64,000 nucleotides of DNA from positions 22,548,264 through 22,612,263 of the forward strand of contig CM069455.1 of NCBI GenBank assembly GCA_035610835.1, given 5' to 3'. Source of the stretch: Ophiura sarsii (taxonomy: Eukaryota > Echinodermata > Ophiuroidea > Amphilepidida > Ophiuridae). The position numbers were made by a program, and so were the translations under genes. Numbering within the stretch: position 1 is the first letter of the stretch; each line of letters opens with the position of its first letter. Shown piece after piece: positions 14-45,700 of this stretch. Below the pieces are notes generated by a model. The model did not search any database and was not told the DNA's origin. It saw only the letters and a list, made by a program, of their open reading frames with translations.

Positions 14-110
14 CAGGTTTTTCCTTTCCGGTGCCTTTAGATTCAGCAAACATTTCTATTAATTTCATTTCCGTCAATTCATCACATTGTTGACAAAATT
101 CATTATGCAC
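14..110 (-). CDS. FCHO2: FCHO F-BAR exon, end of F-BAR domain
   Basis: This 97-nt exon begins after acceptor ...ATATAG and ends at donor GTAAGTG. It encodes 32 codons plus one base, starting [12 protein letters not shown] and ending [13 protein letters not shown]. The last part matches the conserved FCHO sequence AESKGTGKE just after the last F-BAR helix. It starts in phase 0, which fits the preceding exon at 4285-4187. The next exon is outside the window. Confidence 0.94.
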
Positions 111-3100
111 CTATATGGGATGGACAAAAACAAAAGACAAATAATATGAATGATTAGAAAGAAACTCCATGTATGTAAAAAAAAAGGTAAATTTGGTTGA
201 TCCTGTAATCCCAGGAGCGGAGTGCCAATCTCTCTTTCAAAGCGATAGGGCCAGACTCGCTCCTTTTTATAATGCTGCTGTGTGGGGCTCGCTACACCTC
301 CACAGTGAGTCTGTTAGCTTCCCAGCACAGAAGAATGCCAATATCCATTTACATACACCTGGGTAGAGAGGAGAACTTATGTGCCTTACTCAAGAGCACA
401 ACATGTTGACCACAGCGGGACTCGAACCCACAACCTTTGGATTATGAGTCCAGTGCTCTACCCACTGCATCACACATGCCCACAAAGAGCTATTGCATGT
501 ATGTATCGAGAAATCATCAAACAAATAGAAAATATGAAATAACACAATAAGTTAAAACTGTACTAATGTTAACATGATTATTTTTAATGAAGGATGATTA
601 ATAAATAATGAAAGAACAAAAGAAAGGCGCTCCATCAGATAGTGAATTAAAGACACTTTATGTGAGTTACATTCTCATGATTCAGTATACAAATATTTAA
701 TGCCTGAGAGTGTGATAGTAAAAACTATATCACAAGGTCAAATTTGGATTTTTCCATTACACGAGGCGCAGCCGAGTGTGATGGAACAATCCAAATTGAA
801 CCGAGTGATATAGTTTTACTATTGCACAAACAAAAGGCATTCAATATTTGTTTTATATCATGATATCACATCATTCTTTTCCAGCCATAATGATAGTAAA
901 AACTATCACATGGTTCAAATCATGCCTATCATGATATAATACTTTATAGTCAATGATGCACTCAAGTAATATTATTGTACTAATGACGTCCCAAAAAAAT
1001 GAGCTCTATAACTGACAGTACACTTCAGAAAAATTATGCTGTTTAATTTTCATGCAATTTTCTAAATATTTCAAATATTTTACACAATTTATAAAATTTC
1101 TAATAACAAAAATCAAGGAAAATTTCAAAAAAATGTGTGGGTCGGACCTTTTGGTGTGGCCGTAACTAAATCTTCATTACTACCCTCCCCATGGTCTCAT
1201 AAAGTCCCCCTAATCACAAGAAGACCATCATTGCCTATTTCATTAAAGCTAAGATTATTCTTATGTGGACTTAAGGAACAAAAAAAATTGAACTCTTCTT
1301 TAACTTTTTCAGTCAGTAGAATACAAACGATTTTCCCCTAAATTGAGCTTTACTATGTTGGACCCAGGTCTAAAGTTTGACATCAGAACTATTTCACGAA
1401 GATTGAATTATGAATTCTCAAACAATCTTCTTTAAGAAGGGTTGAAAACTGAAGAAGGATCATTCTTTTCAAGATGAACCTTAGCTTTTATGCCATATGA
1501 CCCAGGGTGTAGACAACTTACTGTACTAATACTGCTTTGACATTCTCTGAGCGCTACGTTATACTGCCGTAGGACCCAGGGTGTAGAAAACTTACTGTAC
1601 TAATACTGCTTTGATATTCTCTGAGCGCTACGTTATACTGCCGTAGGACCCAGGGTGTAGAAAACTTACTGTACTAATACTGCTTTGACATTCTCTGAGC
1701 GCTACGTTATACTGCCGTAGCACCCAGGGTGTAGAAAACTTACTGTACTAATACTGCTTTGATATTCTCTGAGCGCTACGTTATACTGCCGTAGGACCCA
1801 GGGTGTAGAAAACTTACTGTACTAATACTGCTTTGATATTCTCTGAGCGCTACGTTATACTGCCGTAGCACCCAGGGTGTAGAAAACTTACTGTACTAAT
1901 ACTGCTTTGACATTCTCTGAGCGCTACGTTATACTGCCGTAGGACCCAGGGTGTAGAAAACTTACTGTACTAATACTGCTTTGATATTCTCTGAGCGCTA
2001 CGTTATACTGCCGTAGGACCCAGGGTGTAGAAAACTTACTGTACTAATACTGCTTTGACATTCTCTGAGCGCTACGTTATACTGCCGTAGCACCCAGGGT
2101 GTAGAAAACTTACTGTACTAATACTGCTTTGACATTCTCTGAGCGCTACGTTATACTGCCGTAGGACCCAGGGTGTAGAAAACTTACTGTACTAATACTG
2201 CTTTGATATTCTCTGAGCGCTACGTTATACTGCCGTAGGACCCAGGGTGTAGAAAACTTACTGTACTAATACTGCTTTGACATTCTCTGAGCGCTACGTT
2301 ATACTGCCGTAGCACCCAGGGTGTAGAAAACTTACTGTACTAATACTGCTTTGACATTCTCTGAGCGCTACGTTATACTGCCGTAGGACCCAGGGTGTAG
2401 AAAACTTACTGTACTAATACTGCTTTGACATTCTCTGAGCGCTACATTATACTGCCGTAGGACCCAGGGTGTAGAAAACTTACTGTACTAATACTGCTTT
2501 TGACATTCTCTGAGCGCTACGTTATACTGCCGTAGGACCCAGGGTGTAGAAAACTTACTGTACTAATACTGCTTTGACATTCTCTGAGCGCTACGTTATA
2601 CTGCCATATGACCCAGGGTGTAGAAAACTTACTGTACTAATACTGCTTTGACATTCTCTGAGCGCTACGTTATACTGCCATAGGACCCAGGGTGTAGAAA
2701 ACTTACTGTACTAATACTGCTTTGACATTCTCTGAGCGCTACATTATACTGCCATAGGACCCAGGGTGTAGAAAACTTACTGTACTAATACTGCTTTGAC
2801 ATTCTCTGAGCGCTACATTATACTGCCGTAGGACCCAGGGTGTAGAAAACTTACTGTACTAATACTGCTTTGATATTCTCTGAGCGCTACGTTATACTGC
2901 CGTAGGACCCAGGGTGTAGAAAAATTACTGTACTAATACTGCTTTGATATTCTCTGAGCGCTACGTTATACTGCCGTAGGACCCAGGGTGTAGAAAACTT
3001 ACTGTACTAATACTGCTTTGACATTCTCTGAGCGCTACGTTATACTGTCGTAGGACCCAGGGTGTAGAAAACTTACTGTACTAATACTGCTTTGATATTC

Positions 3101-6100
3101 TCTGAGCGCTACGTTATACTGCCGTAGGACCCAGGGTGTAGAAAACTTACTGTACTAATACTGCTTTGATATTCTCTGAGCGCTACGTTATACTGCCGTA
3201 GGACCCAGGGTGTAGAAAACTTACTGTACTAATACTGCTTTGACATTCTCTGAGCGCTACGTTATACTGCCGTAGCACCCAGGGTGTAGAAAACTTACTG
3301 ACCTAATACTGCTTTGACATTCTCTGAGCGCTACGTTATACTGCCGTAGGACCCAGGGTGTAGAAAACTTAATGTACTAATACTGCTTTGACATTCTCTG
3401 AGCGCTACGTTATACTGCCGTAGGACCCAGGGTGTAGAAAACTTACTGTACTAATACTGCTTTGATATTCTCTGAGCGCTACATTATACTGCCGTAGGAC
3501 CCAGGGTGTAGAAAACTTACTGTACTAATACTGCTTTGACATTCTCTGAGCGCTACGTTATACTGCCGTAGGACCCAGGGTGTAGAAAACTTACTGTACT
3601 AATACTGCTTTGACATTCTCTGAGCGCTACATTATACTGCCGTAGCACCCAGGGTGTAGAAAACTTACTGTACTAATACTGCTTTGACATTCTCTGAGCG
3701 CTACGTTATACTGCCGTAGGACCCAGGGTGTAGAAAACTTACTGTACTAATACTGCTTTGATATTCTCTGAGCGCTACATTATACTGCCGTAGGACCCAG
3801 GGTGTAGAAAACTTACTGTACTAATACTGCTTTGACATTCTCTGAGCGCTACGTTATACTGTCGTAGGACCCATGGTGTAGAAAACTTACTGTACTAATA
3901 CTGCTTTGACATTCTCTGAGCGCTATGTTATACTGTCGTAGGACCCAGGGTGTAGAAAACTTACTGTACTAATACTGCTTTGACATTCTCTGAGCGCTAC
4001 GTTATACTGCCGTAGGACCCAGGGTGTAGAAAACTTACTGTACTAATACTGCTTTGACATTCTCTGAGCGCTACATTATACTGCCGTAGGACCCAGGGTG
4101 TAGAAAACTTACTGTACTAATACTGCTTTGACATTCTCTGAGCGCTACGTTATACTGCCGTAGCACCCAGGGTGTAGAAAACTTACTGTACTAATACTGC
4201 TTTGACATTCTCTGAGCGCTACATTATACTGCCGTAAAAATTCTTTCAGCTGATGTAGATGGTTTTCTTCTAAACTTTGGAATTGCTGTGGATGGAATTA
4301 CAAAATTGAGATAAATAAGATGCTTTACAAAAATAACAAGTTATGAGTTACTTTTTTTGTATGTGTTCCAGGTCAATGTATTAATTCTCTGTTAAAAACA
4401 GCTAAGAATGTTTAAGCAATTCTCATTGGTTCTTAGAGAAATCTGTGACATTTATATGAGACAACTTAACATGGCGTACATTAATTAGCGTGACCATCTT
4501 CGCGCAGTACGTGGTAACTATAGTTTTGATCCATAACTTGCACTTCTTTAGTGCTTCTACCGCGCTTTTCATGGGTGATTACGCGGCGCATTACGCAGCG
4601 CATTACGCAGCGCATTACGCCAACGCATGGCGTACTCACTGCACGGGATGGGATGGAATGTTGGTGGGTTATTCGATACTAACAGTGGTAAAACTTGACA
4701 AATGTCGGCAATCAAAGGTACAAATTTGATTAAATAAATGTCTAAAGTATGACTGTTTGAGAATGAGAATAAAGGTATTTTTATTAGACCGTACCCGTGT
4801 TATATTGTCTGACATAAATTATGCGTTCGGTAGTAGTATTTTGGCGTAGAACAACGACGCCTCAGGCGGAGTAGTTCCGACTGTCTCAGCTTAAAAATTG
4901 CAATGACAATTAATGTTCACCCTATACCTTTTATAACTCAGCCACTTTTCACAATTTATTGGGGAACAAATCTGTACTTACTTGGCACGAATCTGTCATT
5001 TTCTTGTCAAACTCCTGTCGGAATTTTGCATACTTTTCTATACAGTTTTTGTAATCTTCGGCTGAGGATTAAGAATAAACAATAGATGTGTTATCAATAT
5101 CAATTAAAGACAAAAGTCTACAAATATACTACACTTTTTAAAGTAAGACTGTTTTATTTTGATCTGCAATCACATACCAAACCATATGATCAGCCAGAGC
5201 CATCATTACACATCACTTTTTTTAAATGTTGGAGAAAATTGTGATATGAGCATTTGTCTTCATTCACTGTAAATATGACCCAACGCGAGTAAATGAGGCA
5301 CAATGAGGGAAATATGAAAATTGAGTTTAAATCATGATAATAATATCTATAAATTATGGGACATATTGGTACAAAGTCAATGTTATATCCAGAGCCTTAC
5401 ACATGATTTGAAAGTTGGGTGTCCAAAGTGGGACCAAAATAAAGTGGAGTAAGCAGTGTCCACGTTCCTGTGTTAATTGACCGCATCGGAAGCTGTGAGC
5501 TCCAAATTATTTTAAATAAAAATAAGTCAAAATTTCAAATATTGTGCAAAATCAAGTGTTTTTTAGATTTGGGGTTTTTTTTAAAAATTCTTAGGGCAAC
5601 CATTGGACGGCTTTAGCATTTTTTTAGGGTGTCCATTTTCGCGACAGGGCATAACTTGGTAATATCTCCTTCCAAATCAAAGTTAGAGATGATTGATTGA
5701 AAAGCATTTTGTCTCAAAACATCAAATACAAATTGTCAAGTTATGGGCATTTACAGTTTTGGTTTTGTGAACAAATCAATGAAGCAAATGACAATTAAAT
5801 ACCTCAAAATGTAGTTTATTTTCATGAATCTAAGTCTTGTATCAAAGATCCGAAATAAGGATTTTTTATGAATTTGACATTTTCTAACCATGTCCCACAT
5901 CTGGGCTCTTAAATCAATTCGTTGCTTGGTACAAGATGCTTGTTGTAAAATGTCAAGTTCACACTGTTAATTAGCCTACAATACATACATGTACAGTGCA
6001 GTTTCAGAGAATCACAATAGTTCCTGACCAAATAACAATGACTCCAAAACTAAATTCCATGAAAAATCATGACTTGCATCAATTTCACTTTGAGCAATGT

Positions 6101-12700: not shown

Positions 12701-15700
12701 CTGAAAGGCTTTGTATTATACTTTTTCCATTGAGGGCGCTCACACTGTTTTACCGCCACAAAGCGATGAAAGGCTAGAGGAGCACCGAAGACCTTTTTTT
12801 TTTTTTTCCTTTAAATATTTCCCCCTTATTACATGTGTTATAAATCATGATGCATATACATGATGACGTCACCTCCAAACTTGAGCTGACACAAATGACA
12901 GTAAAGTAAACTAATTGTGTTGAGTTCAGATCAGAGGTTGCACGTCCTTGACCGGCAGCATATCCCATAAGGAAACACTTTAGATTGTAGAAGATTTACA
13001 AGACCGATGAAGGAACTTGGAAAACTCCCTGATACTGTCTATAAAGTCACTGTCATAATACTATGGATGAAATTCAAAGAGGATTTCTTGATGCACCCCA
13101 GGATGCTTCACTTTCATCACATGACCACTGATTTTTGTCACCAGTGTCTACTGGTTCCCATCGACATTACAGTGCAAGGAAATGCTTATAAAGTTGTTAA
13201 ACGAGGGTCTTTAAGAAAATCCTGTTGCAAGTAATATGATTGATGTGTTTTTAATACAGTCCTCTCTTGATTTTCTTAAAAACCCTATATTTTTATAAAT
13301 ACAAGTTTTAGTTGGGATTCAACTTCTTTCATATCTGCACCATGTTTTACTACGGTAGAGATCAGACGACCTCTAGCTGTTAACTACTTTAACGCATGTT
13401 TGTTTTGGTGATAAGCCCTGCTGGTACTGTAGGGGCGCTAAGCATGATGGGGTACATCAAGAAAACTTCTTTGGATGAAATTCAAGCTTTTTCATGAAAA
13501 ACTGTGCATGCATGCGCATGATGATTTCACGATTGACCTAACAGGACGCTCATTCATATATGGTCATGTGTTTTAAGATCGCCTCCTTTCGCGTTACACA
13601 CGGATTTTGGCTTTCGCGACATGATTTTTACTTTACACATTTATATTTGCTTGTATACCCCCTGAGGTAGTAAAAGTATACATTTTCTGAAGGAAAATTG
13701 CATGAGGAAACCAAATATGCCATTAAAATTATAGTACGACCAAGAACTAAAATGGTATGATCGGGAAATGTTCGGAAAAATATCAGAGTTTTTTAATTTT
13801 TAATTTGAGATCGATATATTTTTAATACCTACCCCTATCATTATTTACTTTACATATTTGAATTCCTCATGAAATTACCCATTAGATGATATATAATTGT
13901 CAAAGTTACTACGTCGGTATGGTAATTATACCGGCTAGTGAATATCTCCAATTTTTATTTTATTTATTTTTAGAATTTTCAGAAATATTTGTTTAAGGAT
14001 GAACCCTTCCCTGATATAAACTGCATTTCTGAATTCCTCTAGTTACAAGCTTTCCAAAAATGTATACTTTTGCTATCATAGGTTGAAAACTTTTTCTGTT
14101 ATAGTCATTTTTATAAATCCGGTAAATTGAGGCTGATTATTCATGTTGACTGTGTAGCGAATAGGAAGAAAGCTGATGATCATGGTCTTATCCACAATTA
14201 ATTAATTGTTACAAATAGTTGACAAGTCTGTTGAACTACATACTTAAAGACTACTAAATATCCTTTAAAATGGGACCAGAATGGTGTTTGTAACATTAGG
14301 CGATGACTAGTTATTGTAAAAAGAACAAACATTATCGCCATTATTGGATTATCCCCATTGAGTTTGTACAGGCGGCACCCCTTCCAGCGGCACCCCTTCC
14401 AGCACCACCCCTGGTCTCCAAACATCAAACAGCTGTATCTCCCCTTCTGTATTAGCTATACCAATGCCATTTTGCAGGCAGATAGCTTGTTATTAGGGCT
14501 TTAAAATGATACAAAATTTGTTGAGATAGCTTTTGTGGTTTTGAAAATATTTGAGGAAAATGACAGCATAAAACTACAAAATGTAACGGCACCACCCTAT
14601 TGGGAGGCGAGTTCATAACGCGTGACCATATTGAAAGCGTCCGGTACACACTTCTGGGTTTACGCACATCCGCTCGTCCTAATGTACACACGCACGCATT
14701 GTTGGAATTATGTCCATAGCATTATGACACTGACTATAGTTTACACTGAATAGTTTAAGTTCTGGGTTCTCTTTCCTAAACCCTTCATATTAAATACTTA
14801 ACTTTAATCATGTGTTTTCTTTCTTCAATCTTTCAAATTATCTACTTGATATGCTTTCTTAATATTTATTGACTGTTGTTGTATCTAGTTCCTTAGACTC
14901 TACTCTGTGTTGTTTCTTCAGTCTATCATTTATTATCATCTACTATATAGTTTGATCAGTTCCAAATTGGAGAAGCCTCCTTACACAACAGCGAATGAAT
15001 ACACAAGGGCGAGGGCGCACATGATGGCAACAAGCGCACTGTGCATCACATGTGTGACGCGTGCGTGCGGCCAACACGGCATGCGTGTGGCCATAATCTT
15101 GCAGGTACGCTTTCATTACTTTAGTGCGCGGAGAGATAAACACCAAATATTTCTCGCCAATTTAGAACTGATTTAACTATAGTAGATTTCTTGATATCCA
15201 TGGTCATCTTTTTCTAGGTTGTTGGACCATGTCTTAACTTTTTGCTATCTTTCAAATTCTATACTTACTAGCTTTCTTATATTTGTTCTCTGATTTTTCT
15301 AGTTCCTTAGGCCCGGCGTTCTCTTTCTTTAACCGCTCATACTCAATACATCTATTGTTGTACGCTTCTTTTAACTGTGATGGGGGAAAAAATCATATTA
15401 AAATCACGTGATATGGTTTTCACACTTATAAATATTTGTACGCTCTAGCTCATAGTTGAAGAGCTCAAAGACACTCTGTCTATATAATATAGAATTATTA
15501 AGCCATGTTTCCACTCAAGTTGATCCATGTACGACTGTTGCTGACAAGCTGGAACTACTTTGTATACCCTACCACTTCATGTCTTCAACGGGGACATTTA
15601 GTAGTGATGATTTTAAGGTAGGGTATTCTAATCTTAACCGATGCGCAAGAGAGATCACTGTTTATCAATGGTTTGATAATTGCCATATGTGTGTTATTTT

Positions 15701-18700
15701 GAATATGTCTACTTCCATGCGCTAACAGACATGTCCAAGGGGTGTTGAGATGTCAAAATAATGGTTTAAATTCACAAAAACACCCTGTTGGGAGAACCTT
15801 ATCATGCTTAAAGAGTACACTTGATAAAATAACCAAAAATATTCAGTGAAAGTGGTCTCTCCTGACCAAAAGGTTACATTATTGTTGTTTATAGTGAATA
15901 AAGTTAACTTTTGGTTGGTTATTTATGCTAAAGAGATGACATTTAGGCATATATGACCATTACTACTACATTTAGGGCAGGCCAATGCACTCTTTCAATC
16001 ATGGCAAACAACAGGTTTAATTTTATGAGCAGGAAAGCCCTGGATGCTTAAATGAATCAATGAACTGACATTACATTCATTTCAATTTGTTTTGACTTCT
16101 TCACATGCCTTCAACTCTATGTTGCCGAAATTTCCAGGCTGTGACATGTGATACAGCAAGCGGTTCCATGCCAGTGCATTTTTCAGTTCTGTCAGTAAGG
16201 TAACTGTTTGGATATTGACATGTCATTAGAGTAGGAATTGAAGTAATCCTGTGTGTCATTTTTGTTCATTTTGATGGACAGATTTTCAAGATATGACCAT
16301 GTGAACAATTATTAGTTTCTTTTTGTGCTAGCTATCACGATAGCTAGCTCTTATAGCCTGAATTCAAAATCAATATTCCAAGTACGCGATGACTTCGAGT
16401 CACTTGGTTCAGGAAACCGTGACCAAATCGGTATAATTATCGAACGGGTCCAGCCAAATGACACTCTCATACGGGTATATTGGTTGATCGAGAAGTGTGA
16501 CGCTTGGATGCTATGTGTATTGCATCAGGGTCACTTACAAGCGCCGCCTAATCCATCTATGTCCATGGCTTTGATTGGACGAGAGATGTGTTCAGTTGTT
16601 TAGCGCCCGGGGTGAAATTTTGAGATGATGTCCGCAGTTGTTTGCCTAGCCTGTGTAAAGTATATTTACTCCGATAGGTAAACAAAGCGATAAATATCCA
16701 CTAGCTTGTGGCAATGTAAAGAAATGGAGGGGGGAAGCAAACTGAGAATTTTAAGCAAATATAGAATAGATTAACGCTGTCCATGCGCGCGGTTATGCAC
16801 ACGCAAAATACAATTCACAAAATGTTTCACAAACGTATTTAATTTATTGGCTTTCATCATCATATATTTCGAATCACCATGAGAAATTAATTAACATAAG
16901 TACAAGCACGTCTAGTATTAGGTCAGTTATTCTTGAGATAAGACTTTGAAAGTTTAGAAAAGGTTTTTGCAAAATCTTTTTTATATGGCAAAACCAGGGA
17001 GGTGTAATAGGTAATATCACTCTGGTAAAACTAGCCGCATAGAAAGTGTCCCTTATGTCTGTTATTTTGTTATTCAACGAAAGCCGTTTAAAAACTATTG
17101 TACTTTTTAATTCACTATTGAGCAAATATACCTCTGACAATCTGTGTTGATTTTTACAACACTTATACCAATAAAGCCTATGGAGAGGGTGGTTCTAAAA
17201 TGTTTACTCTCGTGTTTGCCAAAGATGGAGATATCGTTTATAACTGCACAAACAAATCATACTGGGTAGTTAATTTCCATTCTTTGGTAGGCTTAATGAA
17301 ATAAATACAAAATTGGCGGTCGTTTTATGAGTTTTGAAGTCAATTGTTTGCGACATATGGGCGTAGCCAGGAGGCTTGTCATCCCGGGGGCACGAGAGTG
17401 GCGTGGGGTCCAGGGCCCACATTACATAAGGGCCCCGGCCCGGTAGGTCCTGGGACAAAGCCTTTAGGTGATTAGGATTGGTATTGATTCCCCACGACGA
17501 GAAACGCCATGAAATTGGAGATAAGTATATATAAAACCCTTTAACTCCCCTGAATTGTTAATTGCACCCCCCCCCCCCCCCCCCCCCCGAATGACCCTTG
17601 GTGGGTTACCTGTAGCTACGCCGCCAATGAATGCACACAACAAGATCAAATGATTGTTTCATTTCTTCCAAATTTCTTTTTAATTCACGAATTGGGCAGA
17701 GCTCCAAACTGAGTAATAGCCCAAACCCTAATTGGAGGTGATTCTTGTAAATAATTAATTTTCAGAGTGTTTATAACATTAATGTGAAAGTTTCAGATTA
17801 AAAATTCAAACCAAAAAATAAAAAAAAGTTAAAAAAAAGTACATAGTTAGTACATTATAAGTACATCTTTAAAGGATGATATCTCAGTTTGGAGTTTTCA
17901 TAAAGACTATAACTGAAAAATTATATAACTCCGCTTAAAAAAAGAGTACAGCCCAAACCCTAATTGGAGGTGATTCTTGTAAATAATTAATTTTCAGAGT
18001 GTTTATAACATTAATGTGAAAGTTTCAGATTAAAAATTCAAACCAAAAAATGAAAAAATAAAAAAATACAAATAAAAGTACATCGTTAGTACATTATAAG
18101 TACATCTTTAAAGGATGATATCTCAGTTTGGAGTTTTCATAAAGACTATAACTGAAAAATTATATAACTCCGCTTAAAAAAGAGTACCATTGTTAAGCGG
18201 AAGATCTCTACTACAATAATCAAATACAAGCTCAATGTTGATATCTTGCCTAATTGTGTCTGATTTTCACATACAGTACGGACAACTACTGCAAATTTGT
18301 CTTCATATTCATTACTTGACATCATGCCCAAATTTGCCAATACGTTCACTGCCTGCTCTTGTGCCAATACTGATTACCCAATTACATGTCATTATTCTAC
18401 CAAATGCTTTCCTAAAAAATATCAAAGTCTTTCATTTGTACTAGCACTTCCCCTTTAAAGGGTTTTTATTGAGCCAAGTTTATGTATACCAAATAGGTTG
18501 AAACTTGGACAGCACTCTAAAATCATAAGGTTTACTTTTATGTGGGACACCCCTGTATAATAGCTCACCTTGTTAAGTAGATCGTGCGTTGTCTGTAAAC
18601 TATTGACCACATCGGCTGTACCTTGGACAGTACTCTTGACCTGAGAACAAATAATGAAATAAATACAGATATTATTTATTTATTTATAATGCTTTATTTA

Positions 18701-27700: not shown

Positions 27701-30700
27701 TGAAAGTGGGGGGGACATTGCCATTTTTTCACTAGACAATCTTGAAAGTGGGGGGGACATTGCCATTTTTTCACTAGATCGCCACAAAAAGTGGGGGGGA
27801 CATTTGATATTGTGTCAGGAAGTGGGGGGACGTGTCCCCCCCGTCCCCCCCCGGATCTGCGCCCTTGGATGGAGTCTACTGTAATAGTTAAGTCAATTTC
27901 TAGTTGGCGAGAAAAATGCTTTTTATTAAATCTCTCCACACGCAAAAGTAATGCAAGCATATGCACAAGATTTAGGCATGAAATTCTTCTTACGAAACTT
28001 AAGCATTACGGTATTAATAATAATGAACTCTTATGGTTTGAGTCATATTTAAGCAACAGATTACAGACAGTAAATGTAAATTCAAGTTTATCTGATTTCA
28101 AACCTATTAACATAGGCATTCCTCAGGGTTCTATCTTAGGCCCATTACTCTTCATAATTTTTGTTAATTGTTTACCTGAAGCTGTAGATGGATGTAAAAC
28201 TGTAATGTATGCCGATGATACTTCATTAATGTATAAAGCTAACAATATGTGTGATCTTCAAATTCAATTAGAATCATGCTTAAATAAAGTAGCTGACTGG
28301 TTCAAAGCTAATAAACTTACTCTGAATGTTGACAAGACTAAGTTCATGATATTTGGTACTAAAAAAATGCTCGAGAGGTTCCAAGATGTTAAACTAACTT
28401 ACAATAATTTGACTATTGAAAGAGTAGATGAATTTAAGTACCTGGGTGTAAAGTTAGACAGCAACCTGTCTTGGTCGGCTCATGTTGATTATTTATGTAA
28501 AAATGTCAGTAAAAGAACTGGTATCATCAAACGTATGAAACATTTTCTTCCATATCAGACTATTGTAATGCTATCAAATGCTCTTGTTATTCCTCACTTT
28601 GATTATGGAAGCACTGTTTGGTCAAACTTTTCTGCTGAGTTTCATAACAAATTACAGGTACTTCATAATAACCTAGCTAGGATAATTCTATCAGCTGATA
28701 TTAGAACACCAACAAATGATATGATGGATATACTTAAATGGGTAAAACTTGATAAAAGATGGCATAATCACCTAACTCTTATTGTGTATAAATGTTTGAG
28801 AAATTTAAGTCCATCATACATATCTGCCCAATTTGAATTTGTTCATAACAGCCATTCACATCTTACAATAAATCACACAAGTAATACATTGGCTGTGCCA
28901 AAATTTAAATCCAATTCAGGCTTGCGCACATTTCATGTTAGGGCAGCATATGCCTGGAATAGCCTACCAGCAGCAGTCAGAATTGAACTGGAGAACATGA
29001 CTGTGCACCAATTTAAGTCTAAGATTAACGGACTCTAATTGTGTGCAAAGTACTTCTTAATTATACATGTAAATATAATTTTGCTATTTCTGTTTGATTC
29101 ATGTATTATGTGTAAATAGTTGAACATGTCTTTGTAAATACTGTATTATTTTCTGTATGATGAGGGCCTGCTTGGAAAGCAGTGCTTGACACTGAAGCTG
29201 TTTACCCTCAATAAAGAAAGAATAAACAAACAAACAAACATGCCAGCATCACACAGGGCACATATGATGCAGGGTGCGCCTGTTTCGTCATAGCACGCCC
29301 ACGCTCCTTAGTTCGCTGCTGTAAAGACTAGAGACTCATCAATTTGGTGAAGTAAAGGAAATGATAAAGGGAATATTTAGTCCCAGACACATCAAAACAC
29401 CCAGTAGAATGTTAAGTGAACTGTTCTATGATAACCAATGGTGTACTTCATTCAGTCAAAGACTGGATAAATGCCATAATGGACACTTATGAACGTGTAG
29501 TTTTGGATAGCGTATACTATTGAGTGTACTTTTTAAGCTCCTCCACACTGTGTCAAATCCCGTTCGGAAGTCCAAGAAAGCCATGTATATATACCTTTTT
29601 ACATTGAAAAATAGTGGCGAGTAGGCGTGATGATGGTAAGCCTACATATGGCTTTCTTAGACTTCCGAAAGGCATTTGAACCAGTGTGAGGAACTTAAGT
29701 ACACCCAATAGAACACGCTGTCCAAAATTACACGTTCATAAGTTGTAGTGTAATGGACACTTTTAAGCAATGGCAAACAAACCATTCTTTTTGCTTATAA
29801 TTATTATCGTTGCCTTATGTTTTCAATAGATCATTGCCCTTTGCTGTACTTCAAATGAGAATGCAATAACCTGACCAGTGATTTCCAATTAATAAACATC
29901 CTTCACACAATGGAATCCTTTATTGACTATAACAGGAGCATTAAATGGCTCATAATTATTGCTTTTTTAAATAATTGTTGATGGTATTTGTTAGGCTTGG
30001 GATGGGGGCAAATAGAGAGAGTGTGGGTGGGAAACTCTTGATCATTTTTGAAAGGAGTTCGTTTAGGCCAAACAAAGAAGGTCTGTCTCAGAAACATTTA
30101 GCAAAAAAGCTAAGTGCTGTGTGATTTTTTTTTTAGAAAAAAGGCTATGAGGTATGCATTTTTTTTTTGCTTATCAAAGCTTACAGAGACCTTTTTTTTT
30201 AATATTTGTAAAAAATCAACAAAAAAAAGTTTTAAAAAAATTAAAAAAATGTTTAGGCCTCAGCGCGTAGCTCATTTCACATACCAATGCGGGCGGGCTT
30301 CTGAGACAAGACAATCTTCTTTGTTTGGCCATAGCTGGAAGATTGAAAATCTCATCTATAATTTACAGGATTTGGATCTCAATAAAACAAGCCTATTCAG
30401 TGCCACATTTGACCTTTATAACATTTTACATTACTCCTTACTGTATGAGTTTTTCAGATTATCCATGTCCAAATTTCTCTACTTCCCTGACTACTTCAAT
30501 GAGCTTTAGCCTCTGACCTTTAACCTCTATGACCATCATGTTGGGGTTGTTTGTTTGTCCCTAATCATATTTATGCAGCTCCATGATGACCTCATCTACT
30601 TTTAACCTTTAGCCTTTGTGAGCTTTAACCTCTACCAATACATTTTGTGTCTTGTGTTTTTTCACCTGTCCTTATCCATATTTCTGCAGCTTCATGACGA

Positions 30701-33700
30701 CTTCATTTAGTTTTAACCTTTGACATTTGTGAGCTTTTACCTCTTCCAATACTACTTACTGTCTTGTGTTTTTTATTCTGTCTCTCTCCATATTTGTGCA
30801 GCTCCTTGACCACCTCATCAAGTTTTAACCTTTGACAGCTTTAACCTCTATCAATGCATTCTCTATCTTGTGATTTTTCATCTGCCTCTCTCCAAATTCT
30901 GTAGCGCCTTGATGACATCATTAAGTTTTAACCTTTGACTTTTAGCCCCTCTCCATATTTGTGCAGCTCCTTGACCACCTCAATTAGGTTTAACCTTTGA
31001 CCATTGTGAGCTTTAACCTCTACCAATATTGTTTCTATCTTGTGTGTTTTCATCTGCCCTTCTCCAAATTATGCAGTTCCTTGATGACCTCATGTAGGAT
31101 TTAAGCCTGTAAATTTCCGTTTAATGAACTATCCGTTTAAACTTTTTTTAAAAAGCGTTTAAACGTTTAAACGTATTTGTATTCATAAATAAATGAATTC
31201 TGCACTATATCGAATAGATAGATATGCCAGTTATTTGCATTGATTTCATTGCGATCGCGATCGTCACATTTCGTTAGTCCGCCATTTTTATTCTTAGTCT
31301 AAATCCTCAGTCGTTTAACAATATCGATATAATGCATGTATGAAAGGCCATGGTTGATTTCTACCGGGTTTCTATTTCTAGAAACGTTATCGTAATAATT
31401 TTGACATACTTGGTACAACAAGGCCGTTCCGACCGGGTTTTTTTGGGAATTTATTTCTAGAAACGTTATCGTATTTATATTTGGTACAAATGAGGCTGTA
31501 ATGGTTGGTATGGAATGAGAATTACGAGTAAGCTTACTTGTTTACCTAAAATTTAGTCGGACTTTTAAAATTTTATTAGGGCTTACGTTTAGCCGTTTAG
31601 CGAATTCTGTAACCGTTTAAACGCCCTACGAGCGTTTAAACGGATAAACGGTTAGAATTTACACCATTAGTAGGATTTAACATTTGACCTTTAACCTCTA
31701 CCACTACTACTTACTGTCTTGTGTTTTTTATTCTGTCCCTCTCCATATTTGTGCAGCTCCTTGACCACCTCATTAAGTTTCTGTACAAGCTTCTGATGAG
31801 TGGTAGCTAGTCTATCTGTGGCACTTTTTATCACTTGCCAAAAGGGGGCAAATGTTCTGAAATTAAGACAAACAAAATTCATACATTATCAAATTTTATG
31901 AAGTTTTAACTTTCGATCTCAACACAAGAAATAATTACCTGGAATTTTCAGGTGTTTCTACCACTTTGATCAGCAGACTACTCGACTTGACCTTTTGGAG
32001 GTGTGCTGTCAGAATCGGGTCATAGACTCCGTATATAATTTGTATCTGCCCCAGTCTTTGTTGAGTGATGGTTCGATGCCAAGAGTCTATGACCCGATTC
32101 TGAAGTTAAACTTCATATTTTTTATCACCAACACGGATGAACTTTCATTCTATTATCAAATTTTGTTGGGAAATACTAGTAATGTAGTGTAAATTGCAAA
32201 CCATGTAAAAAATATTTCTCCCTAAATTGGAAATGATCAAACTATATATAGTCCATAGACACATGAAGAAATATGGGCTATCGTTGGTATATTCAAACCT
32301 GATTTTCATTTGATGGTTTTATAAATGATATTCTTTTAAATAAATTGCTAACAGACAGAGACCTCATTCCTTTAACCAGGAGAAATATCAGGTCAATTTG
32401 TTGACTGCAATGCTATGACTAAAATTGTATGAGCTTGAGTACACACACATACCAGTATTCATTGAAAACAGATTAAATCAACTGACCTTTAATATAATAT
32501 TCTACCTAACTATTAAAGCAAACAGAAAGCATCATTCCTTCCTTTAATAATCTATTAATATCAAAACAGCCCTCGCAAATAGCAGTACTGGTGGGCGAAA
32601 TACAAGTCAGATTAATGCAGATGAGAAGCCGCATGAAAAGATAGGGCTGTTACAAAAAAGATATTTATCTCCATCAAGATCTCAAAATCTTGTGATTTAT
32701 GACTCAAATCACACGTAGCTTGTAGTCAGTGCTCAAAATTTAGCAATGGGCAAAGGGCAAGGTTTGTCCATTTGAGGTTCCTCGAGGCAGTGGTGTCATC
32801 GAGCCATTCACTATCTGATTGCATTGCAGTACATACACATGTCTACTCAAGGTGATGATGTAAACATAGAAAGTGACATCACTGGTCAGAGGAAGTGAAT
32901 AAGTGATAGACTATAGTTGGACTTTTGACAACTTCGGCTAAGATCTAACATTCCCTACCATTCTTAGTCCTCATTCTTTAAAAGTCCCCATTGAAGACAT
33001 GTAGTGGCAGGCTATACTTAGGGAACTCCGAAACTTTTAACAGTTCCTTCACCATACATTGGTTGTGGTTCCCTTTTTCAATATTATCAAATGACCTTGA
33101 AATTCAATGCCTGATTGCCCTCAAATATCAAAATTGTGGCCTGTATAGTGTATACTATAAAACCAGAAATGTTTGCGAGTTTAAGATTTCACGAATCAGC
33201 AATTCAAGGCATACATTTTGTGAATGAAAACTTTGGAGTTACATTGTGTAACTTTGCAATTTACAGCTCCCAGGTAGATTGGAAATATTTACGGCACTCA
33301 ATTTTCGTGAAATTAGCTAAATATAAATGCCCACGAACATTTCTGGTTTTACAGTACTACATGTACATTGAACAGGTCTACTCTCTCTCTAAGCTTGGTT
33401 TACTTTTGCTTGACAGTTTTCAGGAAGCAACAGTAAATCTTGAAGGAAAATAAAGATCAAAACTTCAGAATAAAGACTTTGATTATTTATTTGGGGAAAT
33501 CCAATCTTAATTTTGTACTTGTGATGATTTGTGTGTAAAATTGGAAATACTGTAAAATCACTTAATTTCGAGAGGGATTTAATTTCGAGAATTTCGCGAA
33601 GGATGTGAATTCGAGAAATAAAATACCCGCGAAACTGATAATTTTGCATTGACCGTGAGAGTAAAATTTCCAGATTCGCGAAATTAAATTCCGGCTAAAT

Positions 33701-36700
33701 AGCGTTGCATTTTTGATTAAGTGTTGAATGCCACAATAACAAATGTGACCCGTCACATCAAAATGGACATGTTGCGAGGCCCGATTCAAATCTGAGTTAT
33801 TGGTATAACTTGATAGAGCACGTCATGTTGAAGGTAATCGGACTCTGTAATCACAAGATGTGATTTGAAGAACTAGATATTTTTCTATTATTCTCTATAT
33901 TTCACCAAATATATTGGCCTCTATCTCCATGTATTTTAGCGGGCATAACATGTGAGAATCTGGAATTTTTACTTTGAACACAAAATTATTAGTTTCGCGG
34001 GTATTTAATTTTGCGAATCAAAATCCCCCCTGAAATTTGCGAAAATTAAATCCCTCGCGAAATTAAGTGGTTTTACAGTTAGATGAACAAAATATAGTCC
34101 TGTACTTACCCTGATGTTGAACTGTTACTTGCTGTCTTTGCTAATTTGCTAATACTTTTGGTGTAGGTGTCTTCAATTACAGCCCTGGATTAAAAAAAAA
34201 ATTCAAAAATACAAAATAAAATAAATATAACTGTCTGACACATCAAAGTTGAATGGTTGGTTAAATACAAACTCTACAGGTTTTTATTTTCCCAGCATGT
34301 CTCAGAAAAGTGTAGACCCTACCTGAGAGGTTTGTTTGCCCGTATAATGAGGTGTGTTTTTTGTTGCCTAAAGACGTAAAGGAAACAATTTAAAGTTTAT
34401 TTTTTTATTTTAAAAACCTTTAAAAAAAAAGATTTGTTTAATTTAGCCTAAATACAAAACATACAATGCAGCCAATGAGATGCAAGAAAAGAAAGACAGC
34501 CCTCCAGCTACTGTGGAAGTCGAAATTGTGTAGCTACATTTTTGTTCGCGCTGTTCACTTTAAAATAAGCGCGAAAATAAAATTCCGCAAATATATTCGT
34601 TTTTCATTGAGAGGAAGCTCAAAATGGCAAAAATAAAAACAAGCAACATTTTTCAAAATGAGCAAAGCGAGAAAAAATTCATGCGCAAACATTTTCACTT
34701 TAACATTTAAATGATGAATGTGTAGCAAAGCAATCTTTGATATCTTCACCTACACTCCTCTCGGTCGAACATGATACTGTTGTCATGGAAACATGAAAGC
34801 TAATACCAAGTCTTTTTGATTAGAATTGTTGATACATGATGTATGAGCCTGTGGGATGTGGGATGAAAATCTAGTTTTCTAAATTGCAAAATTCCTGACA
34901 TTTGAATCTTGTCCAGTGCCTGTGGATGATTGGATATTGGGACGTGGGCTCAACGTCACTGTATCGTAACTCAAAAATGGTGATTTAAACAAAATTGTAG
35001 ATATGAAATTGTGGCGCTGAACACTGGCTCAGCGCCAACTGTATCATAAACAAAATGGTGATTTGAACAAAATTGTTGATATGAAATTGTGGCGCTGAAC
35101 ACTGGCTCAGCGCCAACTGTATCATCATAACTCAAAAATGGTGATTTGAACAAAATTGTAGATATGAAATTGTGGCGCTGAACACTGGCTCAGCTCCAAC
35201 TGTATCATAACTCAAATTGGTGCTTTGAACAAAATTGTCGATATGAAATTGTGGAACTGAACACTAGCTCAGCGCCAACTGTATCATAACTCAAAATGGT
35301 GATTTGAACAAAATTGTAGATATGAAATTGTGGCGCTGAACACTGGCTCAGCGCCAACTGTTTCATAACTCAAAATGGTGCTTTGAACAAAATTGTAGAT
35401 GTGATATTGTGGCGCTGAACACTGGCTCAGCTCCAACTGTATCATAACTCAAAATGGTGCTTTGAACAAAATTGTCGATATGAAATTGTGGCACTGAACA
35501 CTAGCTCAGCACCAACTGTATTATAACTCAAAATGGTGATTTGAACAAAATTGTAGATATGAAATTGTGGCGCTTAACACTAGCTCAGCGCCAACTGTAT
35601 CATAACTCAAACTGGTGATTTGAACAAAATTGTAGATATGAAATTGTGGCGCTGAACACTAGCTCAGCGCCAACTGTATCATAACTCAAACTGGTGATTT
35701 GAACAAAATTGTAGATATGAAATTGTGGCGCTGAACACTGACTCAGCGCTAACTGTATCGTAACTCAAAATGGTGCTTTGAACAAAATTGTAGATGTGAT
35801 ATTGTGGCGATGAACACTGGCTCAGCGACAACTGTATCATAACTCAAAATGGTGCTTTGAACAAAATTGTAGATATGAAATTGTGGCGCTGAACACTGGC
35901 TCAGCGACAACTATCATACTCAAAAATAGTGATTTGAACAAAATTGTAGATATGAAATTGTGGCGCTGAACACTGGCTCAGCTCCAACTGTATCATAATT
36001 AAAAATGGTGCTTTGAACAAAATTGTCTATTGCGTCGCTGAACACTGAAAGACTCCACTCCACCCCAACCCACCCCCCTGTGAAGCACATGTCAAAAACG
36101 AAAAACATTTTGCGAATAATATTAATCGTTACACTAAACATTTTGGTCAAACAGAGTTACTGAACCTTGTTCTCTCTGAGAATTTGTGGAATTACTTCAC
36201 AAGTTCTGTTTAAATTCTAATTTTTGTAATTTAGGAGGAATAAGGCACCCTTTATCATCTTTACCGCATACAGTGAAAATTAGGCTACAACTGTAAAAAG
36301 TGGACATTTCTTGATACAATTATTTTCACGCTTGAAGCAGTTATCACAAATTTTATTAACACACAAATATTTCTTTTGCAATAAGCAGGGGTCGATTTTA
36401 ACTTTTTTAACAACTTGTCCGTTGAAAAAGCTTGGGCCAGCTGTTGTATTTTACAACTTGCCTGCCAGCATTTCAGCTTGCCCTTACATTTTTCTGAGTT
36501 TCGAGGTATTTCAGAGTTACATTTTTTTCCTCATAATAAATCCAAATTCATGGCGTCGGAGCTATACACACGCGGAAAATCCTGTATTGACATCGATATT
36601 TGGCCATCGTATTACTGTTTTGGTACACCATAAAATACCGTCAAATTCTACATTTCAATAGATAAAACATAGATTAAAAAAGGACCCTTTAGGATGTCCT

Positions 36701-39700: not shown

Positions 39701-42700
39701 GAAATGAACTCAGAAGATCCAATGTAGTGAAAAGTGATATATATATATAACAGACAACAAAGATTTCCAACCAGGAAAAAAGACCGTCCTATATAGGCCG
39801 TCTCGCAGAATAGTGTATAGATGATTCTTCTCGTAGCGCTTCCGTGTCAGACGATAAGAAAAAACTTCCAATTGAAAAAAACTCGATAAAGGCGCGGCCT
39901 GGCTCCAAGGCCCACGTTGAAAGAGATAAATATTCAAACTAGGAAAGTCAGTCTATACTTGTCAGATTGACATCAGAGTCAGCTGAAAAAGTAAGTTAGG
40001 TCGATGTGTATATTCTTATAAAAAATATATACAGCTCCCGGTATACCCAGGCCGGCGGACTCCCATCCAAGTACTACCGGGCCCGACGTCGCTCAACTTC
40101 GGTAATTGGATGAGAAAACCGATCTATCCGACGTGATATGGCCGTAGACAGGCACGCGGCATACAAAGTTATATATGTAAATAACTAGAGTCCTGGAAAT
40201 CACTTGGCTCCCCATGTTTCCGTTGTTTTCAAGGACAAATGACGGAAAGAAAAAAGAGATGAAAATCCATCTCGTTTGTGCGATCTCTGATCGAAAGGAG
40301 AGACCTTCATCCTTTGAGAAAAGACGAATGTCTATCGTCGTCCCCTGAAGTACACGACCTGACATGTCCATGGCGAGTCGTGCTGAAGCGTACGATCTCT
40401 GTACTTCCTCCGAAGGTTTTTCCAAAAGAGAAGGCTGGAGATCCAAAGCAAGGGCGTTAATCACCGACATCTGGAAGATACTGAGTCTTCTGATAACAGA
40501 AAGTTCCTCCTGTTCGGCCAATAGTACCTCCTCCCATTCCTTCGAGAAGTTATTGACTGAAGAAGATTTCGGCTTCATATAGTCCATGACTCCTTTATCG
40601 ATGGAAGAGATACCGAAACACTCGGTTTCATCCGTTGGGCAGACTCTGAATGCCGCAATGGCTTCCCTTCTATCAATTCTGGCTTCCTTATCCAGAGTCA
40701 GTTTGTCCTTGTTCCTAACCTTCGACATTTCCGTGAAAATTTCGTTGGGAAGAGAAAGAGTAGGAGTCGAAGTCGTCGCTGCCGGCTCACTAAGGCTATC
40801 GAAGAAAAAAGATCCGCCGGAATACTCCTCTGGAACATCAGGGGGCGCCAGTCCCATAGCACTGGCTGCATAGCTGTTGATAGGATCAACTCTGTTTCGT
40901 TGGAAGATATTCTTAGTTTTGTTTGACTGCCAAGCCAACCCAAAAGGAGAAGGTTCATCCTCAGAAATTTCCTTCCTTATCAGGACATTGGCCGGGAAAA
41001 TACCAGAGTTGTCAGGATCATTGTCTGAGTTATGTTCACCTGAACCCTGTGACAGGTCATCATCATCATCATCATAATTCCCATAATCATCATCGTCTTC
41101 CTCTTCGATGATATCCTCCTCCTCGTCTACGCTGACTAAGTCCGTGACTGTAGTAGTAGTAGTAGTAGAAGGGACAGTAGTAGCGACTACCTGGGATGAT
41201 TGAGTACTGTTAGTACTAGTACGGGCAGCCGTGGGTTGTGTGACATTGTGATTCGCCCGTGGCTGTGTAAGAGTTGGTTGGGAATTACCCTCAGTATTAA
41301 CTCTAGCTTGAAAAGCTTTAAACTGCTGCCATTGATAGAATGAGTTATAATCCTCAAGCGATCCCATGGTCGGTCGTTCAATGACCCTTGGAGTGGTAGC
41401 TATTTGCTGACCATAATAAGGGTGAATTGTCTGGCGGTAAGAGCCAGGATAATAGTCAAAGTCTCCCCCGTGTGAATTCCTTTGTCTCCTGTATGCATCG
41501 CTTAACTCTCCTTGAGAACCCCTGTATGCATCTCTTTGACTTGCACTGTTATCCTCTAAAGAGGGATTAAGGTAAGCGAGACCACTCGATCTATAATCCT
41601 CTCGATAGTCAGTGCGTGACGAGTTTGCTTTCAGATAGCGATTATTGTCACTGGATCGTGACATAACGGGTTCTAAAGAACCTTTGTCACTAATACCCTG
41701 ATTGATATCCGATATTTCCGGGGGGGAAATATTTGCGCGATAATCAGGGGCGCGACTCTGGGCAATACGGACCAGATCTGTGGTAAGAGGGTCAATATTT
41801 ACCGTACGAGAAGCGTCTTTGGGGGAGGAGACTAGGTTACTACTATAAAATAGCGTACCCTGGTCCCCCCGGTGAGATCCCCTACTCTGTAGCTGTGCAC
41901 CAAAACCCCCCCGTAAAGAGGGGTGATGTGCGACAACTGACTCTAGAGCAACAATAGGAGCAGTATAATAACCTCGCGAGGAAATTACACCGCCCGGTGG
42001 AGCCAGGATGTGATCTGGGTGCGTGTTTGATGGTATAGATTCACATGCCTGAGTGGAAAGAGGAACCACCTGACCGTTTACAGGCGCTCCCCTTTCCGTG
42101 CTCCCCTCATCAGTAACAGTCTCACCAGTATTTCCGGGGGGGAAACACAACAACCTCTATTATAAGCACGGTCACCATCATGGGAGGTGGTTTTTCTGTT
42201 ACTGAACGTCATAACGGCAGGGAGAACACCCCCTCGTGAGGAGTTTCCTGATACTACCGAAATGGGATTATTCTCCCCCTGTTCGCTCGTTTGATTGGAA
42301 CAGGGAGAGGGGATCTGCACACCATCAGAACTGGTATGACTAGGAACCGTCAGAGGAGCTGTAAAGCTTCCCTGACTGTTCACGACCCCTGCACCGTCAC
42401 CTTTACGTGGGAGGTGGATCCCCTCGGGTGATCGATCAGCTTTATTAAACAGAATAGCCGACCGTTCACCTGCGATCAGCTCAGAATCGCGAGTATAATT
42501 TGGGTAAATCTAATGCTGTCCAGAAACAGATTTACAACAGACCTAACGCACAGTGGTCAAAACAAAAAGTGGCCTCCCCCTGTTCGACAGTTTTAGTCTC
42601 TTAGGAACAGGGGGTTAAAAATTTGGTGTGACTAGGAACTGCCAGCGAAGTTTATTTCTTTTGTAAAAACTACCCTGGCTGTTCTTGACACCAAAGCACC

Positions 42701-45700
42701 GTCACCTCTGCGAGGGAGGTGGCACCCCTCGGGTGATCGAACGGCCTAATAAAGAATAGACGGGCGTACACCAGCGACCAGAGTGGCGAATACAATACAT
42801 GTAGGGTCTATTATATAACAGATAAACTCTAGAAATGTGTAAAGGTATGGCTAGGGAGGGAAAGGAAAAACGGAAAACTAGGAGGTTTAAAAAACAGATC
42901 TACCTCTGGTCTATGTCTAGTTAAGCCTTTGGAGGGGAAAAGACAATGGCTGCCGTACTGCACAAATACATCCCAAAAAGCGGCCGGTAAATCGGCGTCT
43001 AGCTTGCAAAAGTTATTACTGGAACAACGGTGGTGTATATATCGGGATGAATGAAGGTTCCCCTCTGGTAGGGGTAGTATACACGGTAGTACTTCATAGT
43101 AGAATGAATGTAAACAAAGGGAATCAGACTGAAGAGGATTTACTTTATAAATACTATAGTATACAACCTGACTAAGTTAGTTTTGGGTCTGATCTTAGGT
43201 ATAGACTTGGGAGGGGAAATGACAATTTTAGCTGCTCAATCTCCTCCCAGAATGAGTTCGGTTTATCCGAGTCCAGCTACATCTATTTTAATCTTGAACA
43301 TCTACGATGTACATAACAAGATGACGTCGGCAATACCTCATGATTAAACACAAAGGGAAACAGGTTGTAGATAATGAATACAATGAGTCATAAAGAATCA
43401 AATAAATCAGTATAATAACCATAATACGTAATGATAAATATTCGTCCGTCGACCCTCGGCGTGAAATTAATCAGTATAAAAATCATAATACGTAATGAGA
43501 AGAAATGTCCGTCGTTTCTCGGCGTGAAATAAACTATTTAATTAAATCAAGTCGGGAACCGACATGCGGGTAATCTAAACAGTAGCATGAGCATAGGACA
43601 ATCGGGGTCACATAGGTCATCAAGAATCAATTTTTAATCAGTATAACAACAAAATAACAATATTTATAATCTGTTTTATACCCGTCGTATATGTCTATAA
43701 TATCTATAAAACAACAATAAGACGTAATGAAAATATGTCCGTCGTTCCTCGGCGTGAATTAAACTATCTATTTTATCAAGTCGGGAAACAACTCACATGC
43801 GGGATACTTTAAACAGTTGCATGCATTCATAAGGACAAATCGGAGTCACATAGGTCATATAAATATATATATAAACATTATAATATATAATACAATAACA
43901 AAATATAACCGGCCTCCGAAGCAATAGAAGAGAATTCGACAGTCCCGATCAATGGGTAACGAATTCGACGACACTAACTTGCCGCCATTTTGAATGACAA
44001 TTTGGAACGAACTCGTCGTAGCAAAAATAAAAAAGGCGGTTCTCGAACGGCGCGTCTCGCCTGTTCATCAAAAGTGACTTGAAAGAAATGATGATGAAAC
44101 ACATGATACAATGTAGCACTGTCACAGAGGTATGCATTGTAGTTAATGCAAGGGATGTAATACCTTGAAAAATGTAATCAACAAAAAGAACACACCACCC
44201 CCTTCCCTACACCAAATCACATCAAGATAGGCCTTACAGATCTTATTTGACCCCAGATGACCTCTGATGACCTTGAAAATGTAATCAGCAAAGAGAACAC
44301 ACCAACCCCCTTCCCTCCACCAAATCACATCAAGATAGGCCTTACGGATCTTATTTGACCCCAGATGACCTCTGATGACCTCGAAAAATTAATCAACAAA
44401 AAGAACACACCATCCCTCTTCCGTCCACCAAATCCCATCAAGATAGGCCTTACGGATCTTATTTGACCCCAGATGACCTTGAATGACCTCCGATGAGCGT
44501 GAAAATTTAATCAGCAAAAAGAATACACCACCCCCCTTCCCTCCACCAAATCCAATCAAGATAGGCCTTACTAATCTATTTGACCCCATATTTGACCCCC
44601 GATGACCCCGAAAAATTAATCAACAAAAAGAACACACCATCCCTCTTCCGTCCACCAAATCCCATCAAGATAGGCCTTACTGATCTATTGGACCCCATAT
44701 TTGACCCCCGATGACCCCGAAAAAATAATCAACAAAAAAAACACCCCATCCCTCTTCCGTCCACCAAATCCCATCAAGATGGGCCTTACTGATCTATTTG
44801 ACCCCATATTTGACCCCCAATGACCCCGAAAAATTAATCAACAAAAAGAACACACCATCCCTCTTCCGTCCACCAAATCCCATCAAGATAGGCCTTACTG
44901 ATCTATTTGACCCCATATTTGACCCCCAATGACCCCGAAAAATTAATCAACAAAAAGAACACACCATCCCCCTTCCCTCCACCAAATCCAATCAAGATAG
45001 GCCTTATGGATCTTATTTGACCCCCGATGACCTTGAATGACCTCTGATGACCTTGAAAATTTATTCAGCAAAAAGAACACACCACTCCCCTTCCCTCCAC
45101 CAAATCTCATCAATATAGGCCTTACTGATCTATTTGACCCCATATTTGACCCCGATGACCTCTGGTGACCTTGAAAATTTAATCAGCAAAAAGAACACAC
45201 CACCCCCCTTCCCTCCACCAAATCCCATCAAGATAGGCCTTACTGATCTATTTGACCCCATATTTGACCCCCGATGACCTTGAATGACCTCTGATGACCT
45301 TGAAAATTTAATCAGCAAAAAGAACACACCACCCCCTTCCCTCCACCAAATCCCATCAAGATCGGCCTTACGGATCTTATTTGACCCCATATTTGACCCC
45401 GATGACCTTGAATGACCTCCAATGACCTTGAAAATCTAATCAGCAAAAGAACACCCCACCCCCTTCCCTGACATCAAGTCCCATCAAGATAGGCCTTACG
45501 GATCTCTAGATATCGCGTCACAACGCGTCTCAAAAGTTTTAAGCATATTTGACCCCGATGACCTTGAATGACCCCCGATGACCTTGAAAAATCAATCAGC
45601 AACAGAACGCACCACCCCCCTTCCCTCCACCAAGTCCCATCACAATAGGCCTTACGGATCTCCAGATATCGCGTCACAAAGGTATTTCTTAGCACACGGC

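Follow-up and report, generated by a model that had tools for sequence, protein, structure and literature searches.

Tandem copies of an exon end and its 5' splice site in an FCHO gene of Ophiura sarsii, and similar donor-side arrays at other exons

A tandem array built from an FCHO exon end and its splice donor

An intron of the FCHO gene of the brittle star Ophiura sarsii begins with a tandem array of 37 units, each of which repeats the end of the preceding exon together with its 5' splice site (donor). We regard this array as most probably a mirage, the name given in amphioxus to tandem repeats over exon-intron boundaries; in this explanation a duplicated boundary has multiplied, copies of the donor being tolerated and copies of a 3' splice site (acceptor) being removed. 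The gene lies on the minus strand of the stretch analysed here, which we call the window: 64,000 nucleotides of contig CM069455.1 (positions 22,548,264 to 22,612,263), on contig C15 in our numbering of the 748 contigs of the 1.57-Gb genome. Positions are those of the window unless a contig is named.

Tandem Repeats Finder placed the repeat at 1491-4236, with a period of 74 bp, 37.1 copies and 97% matches. Cut in register with the exon, the array (minus strand) comprises 36 units of 74 bp and a single 75-bp unit, followed by a short remnant. A sequence-only reading of this DNA had already described 37 copies of a 74-bp unit made of exon tail and intron start, and this description holds, except that the unit divides into 50 nt of exon (4236-4187) and 24 nt of intron rather than 48 and 26 nt. 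The outermost unit is the genuine end of the exon at 4187-4285 (minus strand, 99 nt, 33 residues), with the genuine 5' splice site GTAAGT at 4181-4186 (ACA/GTAAGT), and the copies follow in the intron. Counting this founder, GTAAGT is intact in 35 of the 37 units, close to the earlier estimate, and GT in 36; the two deviating units have GTAATT in one case and no GT in the other. The mean pairwise difference among the units is 2.6%. The search of the unit against the whole genome that the same reading had suggested, with very common words skipped by the search tool, returned 37 matches, all of them within this array, and because no match was found at unrelated loci in that search, dispersed satellite DNA was ruled out. 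Higher-order repeat structure was likewise rejected, as differences at a lag of three units were not below those of shuffled arrays (886 of 2000 shuffles at or below).

The founder unit is part of a real FCHO exon, as had been proposed. The exon at 4187-4285 and the next one at 14-110 (minus strand, 32 residues), when joined, matched the FCHO2 F-BAR structure PDB 2v0o with an E value of 4.6e-11, the remaining five structure matches listed having E values of at least 0.095. An open F-BAR frame of 254 codons results when eight window exons, each bordered by AG and GT, are joined, and the Pfam FCH domain was found in it. We aligned 680 translated residues, from exons of the window and downstream of it with some linker exons left out, to named FCHO2 proteins, and obtained identities of 84% with Amphiura filiformis, 74% with two sea stars and 56% with the elephant shark; a separate local alignment to the Amphiura filiformis protein gave 72% over 55% of the query. 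A tblastn search with Amphiura FCHO2 located exons along residues 32 to 951 of 955, and the FCHO exons identified extend over about 124 kb. The FCH match, the match to 2v0o, the tblastn result and the FCHO2 alignment together place an F-BAR and a mu-homology domain in one gene, as in the FCHO1/2 family. Judged by these sequence comparisons, the exon at 4187-4285 belongs to a real FCHO2 orthologue.

The alignment is free of gaps at the junction of the two exons, with no insertion in any of the eight aligned relatives. Because the FCHO protein is conserved through this junction, the first donor is required. Reading through it brings a stop after 13 codons, which confirms the expectation that the later donors would add one. 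Transcripts that use donor 2 or a later one, probably a small share of the total, would therefore carry a stop and be degraded, and by analogy with the human ABCA7 gene, discussed below, a mild effect of copy number on FCHO output is plausible.

At the far edge of the array (1480-1503, minus strand; GGGTCATATGGCATAA) the repeat passes into unique intron sequence. Here TATGGCATAA is similar to the exon's TACGGCAGTATAA, with which the exon part of the unit starts; the intron past the last unit reads CATATGGCATAA, and an internal unit, from 2610, starts with CATATGGCAG. Judging from these sequences, the short imperfect repeat TATGGCATAA/TACGGCAGTATAA is the likely site at which the first duplication arose. 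The same intron holds a tRNA-Met-like gene (ARAGORN; 405-482, minus strand) some 300 nt ahead of the next exon, which may be a tRNA-derived short interspersed element.

Further donor-side arrays in FCHO and in motor-protein genes

Copies of the exon tail and donor in the following intron were found for 4 of 21 FCHO exons. Besides the 74-bp array, there is a second, older one at 30405-31093 (minus strand), with seven degraded copies (71-96% identity) of the tail, from about 31780, and the donor region of the exon at 31715-31856 (minus strand). About 600 bp of other sequence (31093-31676) lies between the end of this founder exon at 31715 and the tail copies, perhaps as a later insertion into the array. 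The exon at 15269-15374 (minus strand) has a single old copy (77%) of its tail and donor region downstream, at 14809-14896 (minus strand), in which the donor is lost. The fourth array lies below the window, where an exon ending at -64878 in window coordinates is followed by 5 copies of 90-98% identity, the donor being intact in 4.

We then counted the exon borders crossed by same-strand duplicates within 3 kb, and these were 4 of the 21 FCHO donors and none of the 21 acceptors. When matches were sought in 264 kb instead, there were again 4 donors and no acceptors, with 36, 6, 1 and 4 donor-crossing matches, and an earlier version with 15 exons, some of their borders approximate, likewise had 4 donors and no acceptors. 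One exon candidate, at -31847, was excluded from the 21-exon tests as its ends were unclear. Three of the 42 borders were approximate (no GT at the donor -23385, no AG at the acceptors -28237 and -58454), and no positive was lost when they were left out. For background, of 3000 intron points drawn at random from the gene, exon-derived arrays being excluded, 8.7% were spanned by local same-strand duplicates within 3 kb, as were 9.3% of 1437 intron points in an earlier count. The supply of local duplications is therefore ordinary in this gene.

In order to look beyond FCHO, the whole genome was searched exon by exon with three profiles. That of the myosin head, with E values to 0.001, gave 77 rows, and those of kinesin and the dynein domain DHC_N2, with E values to 10, gave 125 and 109 rows. 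This survey consists of samples, in which the best 65 of 228, 122 of 251 and 103 of 115 candidates were scored; as it is based on protein, short or decayed copies are missed and units with long exon parts are favoured. Matches with overlapping profile ranges on one strand and within 5 kb were paired, and removal of the copies left 285 exon matches, including some from duplicated genes. Nine of these have tail copies downstream, none has head copies upstream, and two gave other pairs. The two, both from dynein, were not counted as arrays, since we read them as neighbouring exons with overlapping profile ranges. In the DNA of all nine arrays the donor lies inside the repeated unit and the copies lie downstream of the exon. 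The repeat finder gave three arrays in myosin genes (90 bp x 7.0, 156 bp x 2.4 and 184 bp x 4.4), four in kinesin genes (192 bp x 3.8, 182 bp x 4.8, 119 bp x 5.4 and 89 bp x at least 6.8) and two in dynein genes (110 bp x 8.0 and 73 bp x 2.1). In the 90-bp myosin array (L044, C16:179347-179978) the frame continues without a stop for 555 nt beyond the exon, or about six units, and since the unit is also a multiple of three, later donors there would each add 30 residues and no stop.

With the four FCHO cases, such units, spanning an exon-intron boundary with the genuine exon end outermost, occur at 13 exons of several gene loci. In the sample, all 13 arrays are thus on the donor side and none is on the acceptor side (12 and none without the 74-bp array), although a zero in a sample is no proof that arrays do not exist at acceptors. 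On the assumption of independent arrays, a two-sided sign test gives P of about 0.004 for the nine motor-protein arrays and 0.0005 for the twelve. A kinesin gene was seen twice in the survey, about 140 kb apart and in opposite orientation (C3:87097157-87100347, plus strand; C3:87240737-87243980, minus strand), with four exon matches of identical scores in each, which points to a recent inverted duplication or an assembly duplicate.

A probable explanation: boundary duplications tolerated on the donor side

These findings can be joined in a simple scheme. The first 74-bp duplication would have come from slippage or template switching at TAYGGCA, a short imperfect repeat shared by exon and intron; in the ancestral gene its two copies presumably lay a unit length apart. 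Unequal exchange or slippage could then have multiplied the duplicate. The first donor would go on being used as it is the nearest to the exon's own acceptor (exon definition), and the copies would as a result be intronic, nearly neutral and free to multiply and to decay. A duplication spanning an acceptor would fare otherwise: the new upstream acceptor would be used, the message would be altered, and the duplication would be selected against. Donor-side arrays would thus persist, because the first donor still works, and acceptor-side ones would be removed, because an extra acceptor changes the message. The sequence-only reading held that the direction of growth, into the intron, could be read from the position of the founder. 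This was overstated, since the first donor defines the exon and a duplication crossing the donor looks alike whichever way it grew.

Several points weigh against this mirage explanation. The evidence for use of the first donor is of one kind, the conservation of the protein, and the unequal tolerance of donor and acceptor copies is something that we infer from the tally of arrays. Within FCHO itself, the excess of donors over the intron background lacks significance (P = 0.10 for at least 4 of 21), and so does the deficit of acceptors (P = 0.15). In the myosin array on C16, open in frame for about six units, the later donors would come without a stop. Published cases also differ. In amphioxus, the mirage of BflGb6 is on the acceptor side (PMC3087553), and PGBD5 has repeats at both 5' and 3' splice sites (PMC3902484), so that a bias to donors is no rule for mirages.

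Alternative explanations

The bias to donors could also arise if generation of the duplicates were itself directed to donors, for example by R-loops or by conflict between replication and transcription at exon ends, with selection against acceptor copies being secondary. The 13 donor-side arrays against no acceptor-side one in the sample would fit this, as would the very short intron part, about 3-16 nt, of six units, those of L044, L047, L049, L050, L051 and L052. However, the FCHO donors do not clearly exceed the intron background, the survey through protein profiles is biased towards units with long exon parts, and selection alone explains the asymmetry. We therefore think donor-directed generation quite unlikely. 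A wider version, in which amplification of donor tails is a systematic and donor-directed process of this brittle-star lineage, touching a few percent of all exons and feeding new introns and new exon sequence, appears rather unlikely too. If donor-directed amplification were true, each array would, as a natural experiment, confront one acceptor with from 2 to 37 near-identical donors, and frame-preserving arrays such as that of the C16 myosin could give proteins with extra repeats through donor choice.

A second possibility is that the donors are there for a function, either as many U1 sites kept against premature polyadenylation or as a means of tuning FCHO output. The sequence-only reading had suggested such a U1 landing pad, and the intact GTAAGT in nearly all units and the great length of the gene are in line with it. 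Donor letters are also slightly less variable than the rest of the young 74-bp array, 3 of 324 against 38 of 2340, but without statistical significance (Fisher P 0.47, the units not being independent), and when distinct variants are counted, with 3 in the 9 donor sites and 10 in the 65 others, the donors are the more variable part. Near-intact donors are not really unexpected given the youth of an array whose units differ by 2.6%. In the two older FCHO arrays most donors are gone, GTAAG being kept at the donor position in 2 of the 7 copies of the second array (which include one truncated ahead of the donor) and not in the single copy at 14896-14809, compared with 4 of 5 in the younger array at -64878. 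Moreover, the same architecture at three more FCHO exons and at nine exons of unrelated motor-protein genes does not suggest a role special to this intron. Since the older arrays have lost most of their donors and the young one shows no significant conservation of them, the proposal of a maintained U1 pad is unsupported, and we rate a functional donor array as very unlikely. Masking of the later donors by RNA structure, also raised from the sequence, was rejected in the folding model, in which the exon with its first five units is predicted to have donors 1-5 about equally paired (mean 0.42-0.50).

Arrays of this kind are hard to assemble, and the copy number given here may be wrong. That it was invented or inflated in the assembly is nevertheless highly improbable, since scattered variants and one 1-bp insertion are found among the units, and no single artefact explains similar arrays of different ages at 13 exons.

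The claim that the array adds no acceptors needs some correction, in that a CAG stands at the same place in all 37 units (CAG/TATA); it has a poor pyrimidine tract ahead of it and shows no sign of use. That each unit might be an in-frame cassette, of 42 nt (14 codons) from this CAG to the donor, by which the F-BAR helix would gain two heptads or a multiple of them, is hardly credible. CAG/TATA is universal among the units and the 14-codon segment is free of stops in 36 of 37, but the tract is weak, a donor and the end of the CAG that follows it are just 32 nt apart, and none of the eight relatives has an insertion at the junction. The open frame is no more than a recently copied coding exon would show.

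Comparison with known systems

The kind of structure is already known from the mirages of amphioxus, described for Adh3 and two globin genes (PMC3087553). Their units measure 10-72 bp in Adh3 and about 150-160 bp in the globin genes, and their length is unstable. The Adh3 data and reverse transcription PCR on the globin genes suggest regular splicing despite the mirages. One of the globin mirages, that of BflGb9, is on the donor side, and the same report considers that mirages are possibly more general in cephalochordates. Troponin C is a further amphioxus case, reported together with PGBD5 (PMC3902484). The FCHO array resembles these mirages in that an exon end, a splice site and an intron end are repeated in tandem with the signals kept in many but not all units. 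Compared with those amphioxus cases, which concern few genes and both kinds of boundary, what is new here is the taxon, an echinoderm, the recurrence in unrelated genes, the one-sided sample, with all 13 arrays on the donor side, and the copy number of up to 37. A limited literature search found no reports of such arrays in brittle stars or other echinoderms.

In man, the variable number tandem repeat of ABCA7 intron 18 has a 25-bp unit that opens with the GT of the exon-18 donor, the first donor being the canonical one (PMC5954066). Retention of one unit shifts the frame, gives a stop, is subject to decay and is not dependent on repeat length, whereas skipping of exon 19 rises with the length of the repeat (PMC5954066). 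As in ABCA7, the FCHO array repeats donors into the intron and read-through brings a stop. Unlike in ABCA7, where the array starts at the donor GT, the unit here also carries 50 nt of coding exon, and the array is not of the ABCA7 type in this respect. In the IFI6 minisatellite, which also contains donor sites, downstream units serve as donors for alternative isoforms (PMC4526556); in FCHO, by contrast, donor 2 would lead to a stop. Splice signals are copied too in the gain of introns by tandem genomic duplication (AGGT duplication; PMC4974935, PMC3443670), but the FCHO array lengthens an existing intron and creates no new one.

Mirages, formerly a curiosity of a few amphioxus genes, thus recur in countable numbers in an echinoderm genome, with donors copied and acceptors not copied in the sample. 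There are many such arrays, with order, spacing, age and donor strength known, and the choice of the spliceosome among identical 5' splice sites, as well as the tolerance of evolution for the copies, become measurable from ordinary RNA reads. For annotation, exon tails found inside such introns are not necessarily extra exons.

Other features of the window

Further FCHO exons, all on the minus strand, lie at 4982-5061, 18569-18640 and 56641-56732, where the FCH domain begins; these have no copies, and the exon at 34110-34184 has no boundary copies. The introns contain two more minisatellites, of 79 bp x 13.7 (34947-36026) and of about 109-118 bp x 10 (44167-45505). Both were considered as exon-derived and rejected, as they have no match to the 21 FCHO exons with 60-nt flanks. 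In a GC-richer stretch of an FCHO intron there is a minus-strand open frame of 687 codons with acidic runs (40093-42156), for which a Pfam search gave no match; it may be a gene nested in the intron or may belong to a mobile element. Long open frames with RVT_1 on the plus strand, at 53103-55565 and 27746-29038, are probably retroelements inside FCHO introns.

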